A stretch of 64,000 bases of DNA, taken from positions 62,001 through 126,000 of the forward strand of contig JABCZH010000009.1 in NCBI GenBank assembly GCA_013289795.1. The letters run 5' to 3'. Positions 4,035 to 45,342 of the stretch are shown here, in pieces; positions within the stretch are counted from its first letter, which is position 1, and the number at the start of each line of letters is the position of its first letter. Position numbers and translations under genes: made by a program. The notes beneath the pieces are model-generated. The model saw only the letters and a list, made by a program, of their open reading frames with translations. It did not search any database and was not told where the DNA came from. The DNA comes from Acidobacteriota bacterium. Lineage in GTDB: Bacteria > Acidobacteriota > Terriglobia > Terriglobales > Acidobacteriaceae.

Positions 4035-4062
4035 CGGTTCTCAGTTCCCGGTTCTCAGTTCT
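4035..4062. repeat. Heptad array A (unit CGGTTCT/CAGTTCT)
   Basis: Four consecutive 7-base units (CGGTTCT, CAGTTCC, CGGTTCT, CAGTTCT), that is two copies of a 14-mer, with no gap. The suhB stop codon (4041-4043) is inside the array, which therefore encodes the last SuhB residues ELRTGN. This is one of six arrays with a 7-base period in the window. Confidence 0.7.
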
Positions 4063-10704: not shown

Positions 10705-10713
10705 CACAAGCCC

Positions 10714-10741
10714 TTGGCTCTTGGCTGTTAGCTCTTGGCTA
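10714..10741. repeat. Heptad array B (unit TTGGCTN)
   Basis: Four 7-base units in a row (TTGGCTC, TTGGCTG, TTAGCTC, TTGGCTA), ending just upstream of the MoaD-MoaE start. It belongs to the same 7-periodic family as the arrays near 24240, 43760 and 44165. It would lie in the 5' untranslated region of the fused gene. Confidence 0.6.
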
Positions 10742-24236: not shown

Positions 24237-24271
24237 AGCTATCAGCTTTCAGCTATCAGCCTTCAGCTACG
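24237..24271. repeat. Heptad array C (unit AGCTATC)
   Basis: Five contiguous 7-base units: AGCTATC, AGCTTTC, AGCTATC, AGCCTTC, AGCTACG. The stop codon of the alpha/beta hydrolase (TAG, 24267-24269 on the minus strand) is formed within the last unit. It lies between that gene and the glycerate kinase start. Confidence 0.7.
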
Positions 24272-41179: not shown

Positions 41180-43669
41180 CTAAGACGTAGCAGTTGCCGC
41201 TTCCAGGGGCGCCGACCGCTCATAGTCGCACTCCTTATTAGGACATGCGATCACCGGCACTGACTTGACAAACTTCTCCACTAGGAACTCCTGGCCACAG
41301 CTCGGGCACTTCTCCGCAAGCGGTTTGTTGGCCGAGGTGAACTTGCATTTGGGGTAATTGGAGCAGCCGTAGAAAGTGTTGCCCTTGCGCGCGCGTTTCT
41401 CCACCAGATCGCCGTCTTTGCAGAGTGGACACTTTACTCCGATGAAGTTCTGCTTCACATACTTGCACTCAGGATAGCCGCTGCAAGCAGTGAATTCTCC
41501 GTAGCGGCCATGGCGGATCATCAGGTTTCGCCCGCACTTTGGACAAGGCTCGTCGAGCGGAATATCCGGGACTTTCTTCCCCTGATCCAGACGGCGTGTA
41601 GTCTTGCAGTCGGGATAGCCCGTACACGCCATGAACTGACCGAAACGTCCGCGCTTCAGCACCATCACCCGGCCGCAGTTCTCGCAATATTCCTCCTGCG
41701 TGGTCTCCTGCACGTCGGCCGAATCGAGGTCCGGCAAGTTAATGGGATTTTCTTTGGTGAAGGTGCAACTGTTGGGATCTTCCTTGTCGTACGAACTGCA
41801 TGCGTAGAAGGAACCGTGCTTGCCCCACTTGATCACCAGCGGTGACCCACAGCGCTCGCACTTCTCGTCTGTGGGCTTCTCCATCCGCTTGATGTTTTCC
41901 ATGTGCTTGGCGGCATACTTGAGGTCTTTCTCGAATTTCTTGTAGAAGTCCGCCAGCGCGTCGGTCCATTTCTCTTTGCCTTCCTCGATGCCGTCGAGCT
42001 CCTCTTCCAGGCGGGCGGTGTACTGAATATCGAAAATATCCGGGAAGTTTGCCACCAGCAGATCAGTGACGACCAGTCCGATTTCCGTGGGCGTGAACTT
42101 GCCGCCCAACTTCTGCACGTATTGGCGCTCCTGAATGGTGCTCAGGATGGCGGAATAGGTGGACGGACGCCCGATGCCGCGTTCCTCGAGCTCCTTAACT
42201 AGCGACGCCTCGTTATAACGCGGAGGAGGCTCGGTGAAGTGCTGCTCCGGCTTCAGTTCCTTGAGTGTCAGTTTCTGCCCAGCTTCGAGCGCGGGCAGCT
42301 TGTGCTTCAGTTCCTCGTCTTCTTCGTCCTTGCCTTCCTTCGATTCTTCGTACACTTTGAGGAAGCCGTCGAACTTCATGACGGAGCCGGTCACACGGAA
42401 CCAGAAAGTATCGGCGCCGGACTTGGCGTCAATATCAACCGTGGTCTGGTCGAAGACCGCAGGCGTGATTTGGGAAGCCACGAAACGCTGCCAAATCAGC
42501 TTGTAAACCTTGAACTCATCTTCTTTTAGGTATTGCTTGATCTGATCGGGATGTCGGGACGCCGAGCTTGGCCGGATGGCTTCGTGCGCTGCCTGGGCTT
42601 CTTTCTTCTCTTTATAGGCGTTGGGTGACTGCGGCAAATACTGATCGCCGTACTGGCTCTTGATGTATTCGCGCACTTCGGTCAGGGCCTCTGCCGACAC
42701 ACGCGTTGAATCGGTGCGCATATAGGTGATGAGGCCGACCAGACCCTCTTCCCCCAGTTCCACGCCCTCATACAGCCGCTGCGCAATCATCATGGTGCGC
42801 TTCACGCTGAACCGCAGTTTGCGCGAGGAGTCCTGTTGCAACTTGCTGGTGGTAAACGGCGGAGTCGCGTTGCGGCGGCGCTCTTTGCGATCGACCGAGC
42901 GGACCAGCCAGTCAGCCTTCTCTAAAGCGGTTCGTATCTTCTCAGCTTCCTCGCCATTGTGAACTTCGACCTTGTCTTCCCCTTTGCCCACAAAGCGGGC
43001 ATCGAATGCCGGCGGCTTGGGCCCGGCGAGATGAGCATCGATGGTCCAGTATTCCTTCTTCTCGAACGCCTTGATCTCGCGCTCGCGCTCCACAATGAGG
43101 CGCAATGCAACCGTCTGCACGCGGCCGGCGGAAAGCCCGCGGCGGACCTTGTCCCATAACAAAGGCGAGACCTGATACCCCACTAGGCGGTCGAGAACAC
43201 GGCGGGCCTGCTGGGCGTCGACCAAATGTTGGTCAATGTCGCGAGGATGCTCGAAAGCGGCACGAACTGCGCGCTGGGTAATTTCGTTGAAGGTGACGCG
43301 GCGAATACGCTCGCCGCCATTTTCTTCCTCGCCCTTGGCTTTCTTTTTCTTCTTCTTGGCCTTGGCCCCATCGCCCAGTTCTTCCGCCAAGTGGGCTGCA
43401 ATGGCCTCGCCTTCGCGATCCGGGTCAGGCGCCAGATAAATCTTGTCGGCGGAGAGCGCCAACTTCTTCAGCTTGGCGAGAACCTTCTCTTTGCCCGGGA
43501 TAACGATGTATTCGGTCTCGAAGTCGTTATCGGTATCAACGCCCAGGGTGCTCTTGGGCAGATCCTTCACGTGGCCGAGAGATGCCTCGACCGTGAAACC
43601 CGCCCCCAGATACTTCTGGATGGTTTTCGCCTTGGCTGGCGATTCGACGATGACCAAACCTTTGCTCAA
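41180..43669 (-). CDS. topA: DNA topoisomerase I
   Basis: The 829-residue enzyme relaxes negative supercoils by nicking one strand. The N-terminal TOPRIM domain has the catalytic Glu in LVIVESPAKAKTIQKYLG and DPDREGEAIAAHL; a Lys-rich insertion (AKAKKKKKKAKGEEENGG) interrupts it. The active-site tyrosine is in LITYMRTDSTRVSAE. At the C-terminus are several four-Cys zinc ribbons (CERCGSPLVIKWGKHGSF, CENCGRVMVLKRGRFGQF, CPKCGRNLMIRHGRYGEF, CPLCKDGDLVEKRARKG, CPSCGQEFLVEKF). The start is a TTG (43667-43669) with GAGAGG five bases upstream. Full length. Confidence 0.97.
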   Translation of the reverse strand: MSKGLVIVESPAKAKTIQKYLGAGFTVEASLGHVKDLPKSTLGVDTDNDFETEYIVIPGKEKVLAKLKKLALSADKIYLAPDPDREGEAIAAHLAEELGDGAKAKKKKKKAKGEEENGGERIRRVTFNEITQRAVRAAFEHPRDIDQHLVDAQQARRVLDRLVGYQVSPLLWDKVRRGLSAGRVQTVALRLIVEREREIKAFEKKEYWTIDAHLAGPKPPAFDARFVGKGEDKVEVHNGEEAEKIRTALEKADWLVRSVDRKERRRNATPPFTTSKLQQDSSRKLRFSVKRTMMIAQRLYEGVELGEEGLVGLITYMRTDSTRVSAEALTEVREYIKSQYGDQYLPQSPNAYKEKKEAQAAHEAIRPSSASRHPDQIKQYLKEDEFKVYKLIWQRFVASQITPAVFDQTTVDIDAKSGADTFWFRVTGSVMKFDGFLKVYEESKEGKDEEDEELKHKLPALEAGQKLTLKELKPEQHFTEPPPRYNEASLVKELEERGIGRPSTYSAILSTIQERQYVQKLGGKFTPTEIGLVVTDLLVANFPDIFDIQYTARLEEELDGIEEGKEKWTDALADFYKKFEKDLKYAAKHMENIKRMEKPTDEKCERCGSPLVIKWGKHGSFYACSSYDKEDPNSCTFTKENPINLPDLDSADVQETTQEEYCENCGRVMVLKRGRFGQFMACTGYPDCKTTRRLDQGKKVPDIPLDEPCPKCGRNLMIRHGRYGEFTACSGYPECKYVKQNFIGVKCPLCKDGDLVEKRARKGNTFYGCSNYPKCKFTSANKPLAEKCPSCGQEFLVEKFVKSVPVIACPNKECDYERSAPLEAATATS

Positions 43670-43741
43670 TAGACCTCTCAGTGGACAATTGCTTTCGAAG
43701 CTAGCACGAATGTCAAGCTGGCAACAAGGTGCCGACTGCCT

Positions 43742-43783
43742 TCAGCTATCAGCTCTCAGCTTTCAGCTACTCGCTCTCAGCTT
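43742..43783. repeat. Heptad array D (unit TCAGCTN)
   Basis: Six 7-base units without gaps: TCAGCTA, TCAGCTC, TCAGCTT, TCAGCTA, CTCGCTC, TCAGCTT. The stop codon and the last codons of the four-helix-bundle gene (KLRASS, stop at 43763-43765) are inside the array. It is inverted relative to array E on the other side of that gene. Confidence 0.75.
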
Positions 43784-44122
43784 GTGAATCAAGGAGGCAA
43801 GCATCCGTTTTACCTCAACCACTGCCTCCGAAAGACGCTGATAATCGGACGGTTTCAATAGCTCCAGATCGTGAGCGAGCAGAATGTGATACTCGAGTTC
43901 GCTTGCCGAACCAATGGCAATCTGCAAGAATCGCCCGAATTCACAATCCCCCTTGCGACAGGATCCTTCAGCGATATTCGCCCCGATGGAAGCTGACGCC
44001 CTGCGCATCTGACTCGTCAACCCGTACATTTCATCTCGCGGAAACGGCTTGCTGGATCGGTAAAGATCCAGCGTCAGAACGTGGGCCTTCTCCCAAACTC
44101 TGAGGTTTCTAAAGCTCTGCAT
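43763..44122 (-). CDS. Four-helix-bundle protein (S23/IVP family)
   Basis: The 119-residue protein matches the four-helix-bundle family first found as open frames in 23S rRNA intervening sequences, and related to the Avd accessory protein of diversity-generating retroelements: FRNLRVWEKAHVLTLDLYR, FPRDEMYGLTSQMRRASASI, GANIAEGSCRKGDCEFGRFL, ELEYHILLAHDLELL. The ATG has GGGAGG five bases upstream. No reverse transcriptase or variable repeat is nearby, so it is an orphan copy, a frequent state for this family. It stands between topA and dprA and is flanked by heptad arrays in inverted orientation. Function is unknown; the fold forms pentamers that bind nucleic acid in Avd. Confidence 0.88.
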   Translation of the reverse strand: MQSFRNLRVWEKAHVLTLDLYRSSKPFPRDEMYGLTSQMRRASASIGANIAEGSCRKGDCEFGRFLQIAIGSASELEYHILLAHDLELLKPSDYQRLSEAVVEVKRMLASLIHKLRASS

Positions 44123-44148
44123 GTTCGCCTCCCGATTCCGGACTGCCT

Positions 44149-44183
44149 AAGCTGACGGCTGATAGCTGACAGCTAAAAGCTCT
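44149..44183. repeat. Heptad array E (unit NAGCTGA)
   Basis: Five 7-base units: AAGCTGA, CGGCTGA, TAGCTGA, CAGCTAA, AAGCTCT. Read on the minus strand it has the same TCAGCTN unit as array D. The dprA stop codon (TAG, 44173-44175) is within the fourth unit. Confidence 0.75.
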
Positions 44184-45342
44184 TCACAAAATTCTTTCCC
44201 GGCAGTTGCTTCACCTTGCCGGCCAGCTCGAGTTCGAAAAGCGCGGCAAAAATCTCGGAGGAGGACAGTCCCGGCTCCAGGCGCTCGACAATCTCATCAA
44301 TGTGGGTGGCTTCGTCGGCTTTCAGCAGAGCAAAGATCTTTTTTTCGTGGGGCGGGAGTTCGTTTTCCTGGAATAGAGATGCGGTTTGCCCCGCCGGCGA
44401 TTCATCGGCACCTTGGGGTTGCAGTCTAAGTCTAACATCCGTAGGGAGTTCCTCCCACACATCCTCCCACGTGGCCACCAGCTTGGCGCCTTGTTTAATA
44501 AGGGTGTTGGGGCCCCAGGAGTTCTTGTTGGTGACGTTGCCCGGGACCGCGTAAACGTCACGACTCTGCTCCAGGGCGCAGCGTGCGGTGATGCGAGTTC
44601 CGCTGTATTCCGCTGCCTCCACCACTAGGACGCCCAGAGAGATTCCGCTGATAATCCGGTTGCGAATGGGGAAATTCTGGGGCGCGGCAAACGTTCCCAT
44701 GGAAAACTCGGAGATCACAGCGCCTCCTGAAGCAAGTATCTGATCCATGAGCCGGGTATTCTCTTTGGGATACGTAACATCCACGCCAGTGCCGAAGACT
44801 GCCACAGTTTTTCCTTTCCCAGCGAGAGCGCCGCGGTGACCCGCCGTGTCCACGCCGCGGGCCATGCCGCTGAAGATGACGAGCCCGCGAGCGCCCAGAT
44901 CGCAGGACAGTCGTTCAGCCATCCCCAGACCATAGGGAGTTGGGTGCCGTGTACCAACCAGGGCCACTCCGGGCTGCGAAATTACTGCGTCATCGCCGCG
45001 CACATAAAGGATGAGCGGGGGGTCGTAGATCTGCTTCAACTGGGAGGGATAGGCGGAGTCATCCAAAGAAATGACTCTCACGTTCGCAGCCGCCGCGCGG
45101 GCGATTTCGTCCTGCGCCAGTTCCAGAGAGCGGCCCGTGCCCAGCGATTGGGCCGAAACCGCCCGGACACCGGTGGCCTCTAACTCCGTAAGTGACGCCT
45201 GAAAAACAGCGTTCACGCTGCCAAAGAACTCGACCAGGCGGCGGCCCCGTGTTGGGCCCAGCCCCGGAGTCAAGGCGAGGGCAAGCCACTGGCGGGTGGC
45301 GGTTTCGACGGTTCTGTCAGATGCGGCGAGGGTTGCGGACAC
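44173..45342 (-). CDS. dprA: DNA-processing protein DprA
   Basis: The 389-residue protein protects incoming single-stranded DNA and loads RecA during natural transformation. It has an N-terminal helical region (WLALALTPGLGPTRGRRLV), the Rossmann fold with YPSQLKQIYDPPLILYVRG, ALVGTRHPTPYG, FSGMARGVDTAGHRGAL and FGTGVDVTYPKENTRL, and a C-terminal winged helix (KKIFALLKADEATHIDEIVE). The start is GTG (45340-45342) with GGAGGT five bases upstream. The last codons and the stop lie in heptad array E. Other competence genes are not adjacent. Confidence 0.95.
   Translation of the reverse strand: MSATLAASDRTVETATRQWLALALTPGLGPTRGRRLVEFFGSVNAVFQASLTELEATGVRAVSAQSLGTGRSLELAQDEIARAAAANVRVISLDDSAYPSQLKQIYDPPLILYVRGDDAVISQPGVALVGTRHPTPYGLGMAERLSCDLGARGLVIFSGMARGVDTAGHRGALAGKGKTVAVFGTGVDVTYPKENTRLMDQILASGGAVISEFSMGTFAAPQNFPIRNRIISGISLGVLVVEAAEYSGTRITARCALEQSRDVYAVPGNVTNKNSWGPNTLIKQGAKLVATWEDVWEELPTDVRLRLQPQGADESPAGQTASLFQENELPPHEKKIFALLKADEATHIDEIVERLEPGLSSSEIFAALFELELAGKVKQLPGKNFVKSF

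Follow-up and report, generated by a model that had tools for sequence, protein, structure and literature searches.

A four-helix-bundle gene framed by inverted heptad arrays looks like one member of a mobile DNA family that is widespread among bacteria and so far little recognised

Introduction

Between dprA and topA in an Acidobacteriota genome lies a small S23/IVP-type gene whose two ends are marked by tandem arrays of the heptanucleotide TCAGCTN, set in opposite orientation. The locus raises the question of whether gene and arrays form an inserted mobile cassette bounded by inverted repeats, as the original prediction proposed, and, if so, what the encoded protein contributes to it. The window, that is the whole stretch of DNA analysed here, covers 64,000 nucleotides (contig JABCZH010000009.1, positions 62,001 to 126,000 of the forward strand), and coordinates are those of the window unless a locus is named.

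According to the parts of PMC4990558 available to us, the 23S rRNA of Coxiella burnetii carries an intervening sequence (IVS) of 428 nt, closed by a terminal stem of 28 bp and with an S23p ORF in its loop. Immediately before this ORF stand two to three tandem heptads (GACAGAT), deletion variants exist, and the origin and function of IVSs are described as unclear (PMC4990558). Heptanucleotide repeats are known from Xanthomonas and Nostoc (PMC4692102), Beggiatoaceae (PMC4679880) and Geobacter (PMC2700814). The portions of these three papers at hand name no partner gene for the heptads, and a text search of the available text of PMC4692102 and PMC4679880 gave no mention of four helix or of 23S (23S rRNA). 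The origin of the heptads is posed in both as an open puzzle, and PMC4679880 suggests a repeat-binding protein, then unidentified, as a possible mobile entity. Our literature search, which left preprints outside and took in few subscription papers, found no link of the four-helix gene with heptad arrays beyond the Coxiella IVS.

The cassette between dprA and topA

Read on the minus strand, the gene order is dprA, the 119-aa four-helix gene and topA. The relevant features of the window are as follows.

43763..44122, minus strand: four-helix-bundle (S23 / 23S_rRNA_IVP) gene, 119 aa, in the loop of the element (ORF, PF05635 and TIGR02436 profiles, AlphaFold, Foldseek)
44149..44183, minus strand: 5' arm, heptad array AGCTNTC / TCAGCTN, overlapping the dprA stop codon at 44173-44175 (sequence reading and Tandem Repeats Finder)
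43738..43782, minus strand: 3' arm, inverted unit (NAGCTGA on the gene strand), overlapping the four-helix stop codon at 43763-43765 (reading, Tandem Repeats Finder and RNA fold)
44173..45342, minus strand: dprA, upstream neighbour, a host gene outside the element (ORF list and profile matches)
41180..43669, minus strand: topA, downstream neighbour, a host gene outside the element (ORF list and profile matches)
24237..24269, plus strand: gene-less TCAGCTN array with the unit of the window cassette, its inverted partner absent within 700 nt (Tandem Repeats Finder and array census)
4035..4062, plus strand: short gene-less AGTTCTC-type array with the unit of the genome's fourth cassette, L004 (Tandem Repeats Finder; under the lag-7 threshold)
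10713..10740, plus strand: gene-less CTTGGCT-type array (Tandem Repeats Finder and lag-7)

The gene was correctly recognised as S23/IVP-type in the original prediction: its protein matches PF05635 with an E value of 1.1e-35 (122.4 bits, curated cut-off 33.8) and TIGR02436 with 2.2e-35 (121.1 bits, cut-off 24). The sequence and Tandem Repeats Finder, which placed the arrays beside the gene at 43741-43783 and 44149-44181, likewise bear out the opposite orientation of the TCAGCTN units at its 3' end and 5' side and the overlap of each array with a stop codon. The letters of the 5' arm run AGCTTTT-AGCTGTC-AGCTATC-AGCCGTC-AGCTT and cross the dprA stop codon. In the predicted RNA fold of 43738-44183 (minus strand) the two arrays pair as a long terminal stem, with -179.7 kcal/mol for the whole as compared with -153.4 kcal/mol (sd 6.1) for shuffles (z -4.29). 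The cassette has the build of an IVS, with an S23 ORF looped between complementary termini; its site is between dprA and topA, and an Rfam scan of the whole window gave zero matches. PF05635 is the sole gene of the window element, in which no other Pfam family and no transposase, nuclease or reverse transcriptase was found. The three extra gene-less arrays of the window, at 4035-4062, 10713-10740 and 24237-24269, are of three unit types, and the CTTGGCT unit occurs in the dprA-topA cassette of a relative (L185) and in none of the four cassettes of the source genome.

The AlphaFold model of the 119-aa protein consists of four helices (mean pLDDT 97). Foldseek placed 2gsc best (TMq 0.94), then 2rld, then Avd of a diversity-generating retroelement (DGR) at TMq 0.79 and 14% identity, with Avd/DGR structures 4dwl, 8ub7 and 8ube and DGR ribonucleoprotein structures among the matches. 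The two closest structures, 2gsc and 2rld, have five chains each, and the S23p of X. campestris is a homopentamer according to the available part of PMC4990558. Against the Avd model NF033474 the window protein reached 23.4 bits, far under the cut-off of 80. Over 127 diverse four-helix proteins the near-invariant residues, which are strikingly polar for a bundle, include W10, Q38, R41, S45, N49, E52, G53, S72 and E75 (window numbering), and the near-invariant polar set Q38, R41, S45, N49, E52, S72 and E75 suggests a ligand or catalytic site and not a mere scaffold. Purifying selection is strong, with a dN/dS of 0.052 for the window protein vs that of L050; for the pairs with finite dS among the 25 closest proteins the median is 0.056.

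Inverted arms across phyla

In order to see the arms on a wider scale, we used 114 loci (30 from 100 genomes of the same family, 80 named loci from many phyla and the four of the source genome), many of them metagenome-assembled contigs in which assembly errors are possible. At the 112 loci with both 150-nt flanks, a local score of at least 24 was taken as an inverted match. Such a match was found at 85 of the 112 loci, as compared with 7 of 455 control spots taken from these loci, 3 of 112 shuffles, 137 of 2240 mismatched pairs and, in the direct (non-inverted) comparison, 6 of 112. The 27 loci that the test missed have to be read with the trimming of arrays that overlap the gene's stop codon: the window's close relatives L050-L055 fell below the score because their flank began after the stop. 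With the flank begun 30 nt earlier, a setting without control, 125 of 139 non-redundant loci scored at least 22.

A lag of 7 was detected in 45 upstream and 33 downstream flanks of the 112 loci and in none of 224 shuffled flanks, and a period of 8 in 8 upstream and 8 downstream flanks and in one of the 224 shuffles. The best lag was 7 in 76 of the 112 cassettes, 8 in nine (L033 and eight Prevotella/Prevotellaceae loci), 9 in one and 11 in one, with 25 under the cut; the cassettes of best lag 8, 9 and 11 rule out a fixed period of 7. The idea that Prevotella genomes are all of period 8 failed too, since they are mostly 7 and some 8. One hypervariable base per heptad, as a signature of mutagenesis, was modest only (0.54 of mismatches at the top phase vs 0.43 at random).

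Single loci added further observations. L098 has a cassette of period 9 and L033 one of period 8. In Prevotella (G101), L310:13212-13569 holds eight near-identical blocks of ~46 nt in a row with three GTGAAAA-type heptads each, and further GTGAAAA-type arrays lie a few kb off and elsewhere on the contig. At L128, of Thermoanaerobacter wiegelii, heptad arms were not detected beside the PF05635 gene, which may be a domesticated copy. The two copies of G076 (L029 and L272) considered as near-identical for mapping the element ends turned out to be alike only in profile score, with no nucleotide match. An Rfam scan of 20 of the 114 loci found none with rRNA, and searches of phages and of E. coli genomes gave no match.

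Occupied and empty sites

If the cassette is mobile, related DNA should be found with and without it. At the dprA-topA junction we compared 30 loci, the window being one of them, from 30 of the 92 genomes with a dprA match. The gene stands between inverted arrays in 13 of the 30, is decayed in four (L173, L182, L190 and L192) and is absent from 12 with a gap of 67-281 nt, the sorting into decayed and empty sites being made by eye, and one locus at a contig end was unreadable; the gene is thus not fixed at this site. The arms co-vary between relatives, from TCAGCTN to TTAGCTN, TTGGCTN, TCCGCTN and GAGCNNT types. Given that the window protein is under purifying selection, the copy at dprA-topA is an old resident, and the insertion at this site is old. 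Clean presence or absence was found at 97-98% identity in plasmids of the Nostocales.

PF05635 genes occur in 26 PLSDB plasmid records, nearly all cyanobacterial. Among the 12 plasmid stretches read, near-perfect inverted heptads are seen in L335 (GGGAGTA), L336 (GGGAACA) and L330 (GGGTGTA), and arms were not seen in L332. Presence and absence of the element at otherwise near-identical sites was observed directly. In set 1, a 428-nt cassette is present in Trichormus and Scytonema plasmids and absent in those of Tolypothrix, N. linckia and N. carneum, with a flank identity of 97-98% (about 97.8%; junctions read in L342-L344). GTAAT flanks the cassette on both sides and is single at the empty site. 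In the more distant plasmid L345 that site holds a decayed copy, and for this reason the empty sites of set 1 may be either ancestral or precise losses. In set 4, the cassette is flanked by TTCTA in L337 and L354 and is missing from L351, L352 and L355; in L355 the neighbouring intergenic gap holds a cassette of a different unit, and L337, L351, L352 and L354 have no cassette in that gap. Sets 2 and 3 are less clean, the gene-free site of set 2 keeping ~50 nt of other sequence (L346) or gene-less arms (L348) and the flanks of set 3 being only about 90% identical. The candidate target duplications of the four events measure 5 bp twice (GTAAT and TTCTA), about 3 bp once and 0-1 bp once.

In plasmid pNPM1 of a Nostoc lichen symbiont, a gene-less heptad hairpin of 182 nt (L353:1248-1429) interrupts a four-helix-bundle gene, and its unit TCAGAAG/TCAGGAG is that of the interrupted cassette's own arms. 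As the gene is otherwise intact, the hairpin is best read as a gain. This gene-less element matches at 98 places, itself included, in 43 plasmid records, 28 of them with at least 80% coverage. On cyanobacterial plasmids, cassettes also lie inside CRISPR operons, in L333 between cas6 and cas4 and in L338 between cas10 and a Cmr3 gene.

Gene-less copies and the pairing of unit and protein

The source genome (4.67 Mb in 33 contigs) has four PF05635 genes, so the description of the window gene as an orphan does not hold. By eye, all four copies are framed by inverted arrays, each with a different unit.

L001 cassette: unit TCAGCAN
Window copy cassette: unit TCAGCTN
L003 cassette: unit GGTCGTN
L004 cassette: unit AGTTCTC/AGTTCCC, with an in-frame TAA in the gene

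Copies lacking arrays would have spoken against the cassette, and the other three of this genome, like the 85 of 112 loci above, are framed. The gene of L004 (L004:1501-1818) has its in-frame TAA, yet gene-less arrays matching the L004 arms are present in the genome.

In 862 kb of the source genome we counted 54 arrays of lag 7; other lags from 4 to 22 gave 0-4 arrays each, except the multiples 14 (29) and 21 (8). An inverted partner was found within 700 nt for 32 of the 54, mostly with gene-free loops under 80 nt. The random-partner control was weak, as for 23 of the 54 arrays a score of 24 was also reached by one or more out of 20 randomly chosen 700-base pieces; it is impure because the units recur genome-wide. 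Examples are L007:1502-1568 and L014:1507-1577, the latter between two genes that we take to be ribosomal protein genes. Six gene-less hairpins, hand-picked and not a random draw, fold as RNA with z from -3.2 to -11.8. Gene-less hairpins far outnumber the gene-bearing copies.

The gene-less arrays tend to resemble the arms of a cassette in their own genome. In the sampled source-genome DNA this was the case for 37 of 50 (score of at least 24), 18 of them matching L001, 10 L003, 5 L002 and 4 L004, and the remaining 13, of AGTTTCN and T(A/G)GCT or TTGGCT types, match no own cassette and have units carried by the cassettes of relatives. Only 21 of the 50 passed the test of own vs other cassettes at p<0.05. 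Of 78 gene-less arrays in eight further genomes, 39 matched an own cassette better than 95% of cassettes drawn at random from other genomes, as compared with 3.9 expected; for several of these genomes the comparison used part of the cassettes, for example 4 of 12 in G101, 2 of 9 in G102 and, in G117, 4 of 26.

The unit also follows the protein. At strictly non-orthologous sites the same unit is shared by 15 of 576 pairs (2.6%) at 30-35% protein identity and by 55 of 107 (51%) at 60-65%, and such cassettes mostly agree in the direction of the unit with respect to the gene. In G025, two copies at separate sites that are 63% identical both have the unit GGCTAGT.

The arrays tend to go with the gene across genomes as well. 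Lag-7 arrays number zero in 400 kb of four gene-free genomes and 0.8-8.8 per 100 kb in six genomes with 2 to 8 gene copies; two one-copy genomes also gave zero in 120 kb each. The TCAGCNN array pattern TCAGCNNTCAGCNNTCAGC has 1832 matches over the 100 genomes and its reversed control 99. The number of matches correlates with PF05635 copy number (Spearman 0.64, 100 genomes), and at least one match is found in 51 of 72 gene-bearing vs 8 of 28 gene-free genomes; these genomes are related, so that p-values serve as a guide only. The presence of the gene itself is patchy (72 of the 100 genomes). One clear exception, G026 (97% complete), has 60 TCAGCNN matches and zero PF05635 hits, which may mean that gene-less families outlive their gene.

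A reverse transcriptase was considered as the mover. The RVT_1 profile has no match in the source genome and is absent from 38 of the 72 gene-bearing genomes, including those with 11, 9 and 8 copies (G025, G007 and G074). Mean copy number is 3.2 with RVT_1 and 2.4 without (p 0.064), which is no clear separation. RVT_1 is not required within the genome, and a reverse transcriptase of another family is possible.

Landing position and orientation

Of 104 cassettes that have a long upstream frame, 78 begin their 5' arm no more than 15 nt from the stop of that frame, a figure inflated by the stop codons that the arms themselves contain. At the empty plasmid sites the gap at the insertion point is only a few bases wide. 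Between co-directional genes the sense orientation prevails by locus (48 vs 9), but after grouping orthologous sites the bias is 15 vs 6 (21 clusters) and not significant (p 0.078). At dprA the first heptad coincides with the stop codon; copying of the unit from the local target site is nevertheless ruled out, since a small number of units recurs dozens of times over the genome and the unit goes with the protein even where the sites are unrelated.

Discussion

Taken together with its relatives, which occur at many sites in diverse bacteria, the unit between dprA and topA appears to represent a kind of mobile DNA that has so far been little recognised. There is good support for a mobile element that exists in two forms, with and without the gene, and the inserted cassette of the original prediction is upheld by the frequency of inverted arms over controls together with the presence and absence in plasmids. 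Since the element has no transposase, nuclease or reverse transcriptase of its own, the protein's part in mobility is deduced from association only; our best inference is that it recognises the hairpin of its own family and is what drives or maintains that hairpin.

The mechanism that we propose is as follows. The element is a long hairpin, and each of its arms is a tandem array of a 7-nt unit, or in some lineages of 8 or 9 nt, the two arms being oppositely oriented. Copies with the four-helix gene, which occupies the loop, measure about 430-530 nt, and gene-less copies have a short unrelated loop. Probably forming a pentamer in the manner of 2gsc, the four-helix protein would bind the heptad hairpin of its own family, as DNA or RNA, and enable its insertion or maintenance in trans, as RAYT does for REPINs, with catalysis supplied by host enzymes. 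Most cassettes sit where the upstream gene ends, at its stop codon, the position of least harm. We put the probability of this reading, a mobile family whose protein binds its own heptad hairpin and acts in trans with host catalysis, at about 0.72.

The heptad hairpins could instead be ordinary regulatory or termination hairpins expanded by replication slippage, with the four-helix gene as a passenger. The parts of PMC4692102 and PMC4679880 at hand report the view that heptads arise by slippage over the polymerase footprint, the hairpins fold strongly as RNA, and slippage does act on the arms, as seen from L334 and L339, whose difference is exactly two heptads. However, empty sites lack arms and gene alike, the unit tracks the protein lineage at unrelated sites, and the four gene-free genomes have no lag-7 arrays (neither do the two one-copy genomes). 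Slippage as the origin is already disfavoured, and we regard it as very improbable. A more serious candidate is an element that moves at the RNA level, in which the hairpin transcript would be excised by RNase III, in the manner of rRNA IVSs, and recopied by a reverse transcriptase in trans, the four-helix protein serving as an RNA chaperone similar to Avd. The likeness to the Avd fold, the fact that RNase III excises the Coxiella IVS (available part of PMC4990558) and the position of cassettes at the stops of long upstream frames would all fit, and the sense orientation of 15 of the 21 site clusters leans the same way without being significant. Against it stand the low score with the Avd model and the 38 gene-bearing genomes without RVT_1, the source genome among them, and we consider it unlikely.

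The protein could also be a host-beneficial regulator of heptad hairpins in mRNA, a regulon whose elements spread slowly as regulatory sites. Such a role would agree with the strong purifying selection at conserved sites and with hairpins between operon genes, as at dprA-topA and L014, and MacGregor (2015) proposed a network of regulation for TAACTGA heptads (PMC4679880, in the part available). It is harder to reconcile with four paralogues and four units in one genome, with the patchy presence of the gene, with the decayed copies at dprA-topA and with a hairpin inserted into a gene (L353), and we hold it to be quite unlikely.

RAYTs are HUH (Y1) nucleases, and in REPIN/RAYT systems the protein gene is flanked by the repeat that it serves, gene-less palindromic copies lie between genes, and there is one family per paralogue. 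The four-helix elements are alike in that dispersed gene-less palindromes match the repeats around the gene. They differ in that the protein has no Pfam nuclease match, the element contains no Y1 HUH RAYT, and the repeat consists of heptads in tandem, in arrays that vary in length. With the 23S rRNA IVS, as described in the available part of PMC4990558, the window unit shares its size of ~430 nt, the stem of terminal inverted repeats, the S23/four-helix ORF in the loop and the tandem heptads. In contrast to the IVS, it lies between protein genes with heptad arrays as both arms, and the source genome has several unit families and many gene-less copies. The four-helix fold is common to Avd of diversity-generating retroelements (Foldseek), from which the window protein is set apart by its score far under the NF033474 cut-off and by the lack of RVT_1 in the source genome. 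The published heptanucleotide repeats, in the portions available, are alike in being tandem heptads, mostly intergenic, with some inverted pairs or fold-backs. The element family resembles both IVSs and REPIN/RAYT, and the four-helix protein is likely its hairpin-specific partner.

The 23S rRNA IVSs are probably members of this class that landed in rRNA. Taken further, S23 proteins in general may be the mobility or maintenance proteins of an unrecognised class of transposable elements, heptad-hairpin elements, spread across phyla, without a known transposase or reverse transcriptase, with lineage-matched units and gene-less hairpins mobilised in trans, of which the IVSs and the heptads of cyanobacteria, Xanthomonas, Geobacter and Beggiatoaceae would be products; we hold this wider claim tentatively, at somewhat less than even odds.

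If the four-helix protein is the partner, an abundant gene family annotated by its fold alone gains a role, and a partner gene is offered for two old puzzles, the purpose of the S23 protein in rRNA IVSs and the source of heptanucleotide repeats. If this is true, a class of mobile elements without a known recombinase would be open to test with a 119-residue protein and a short hairpin.
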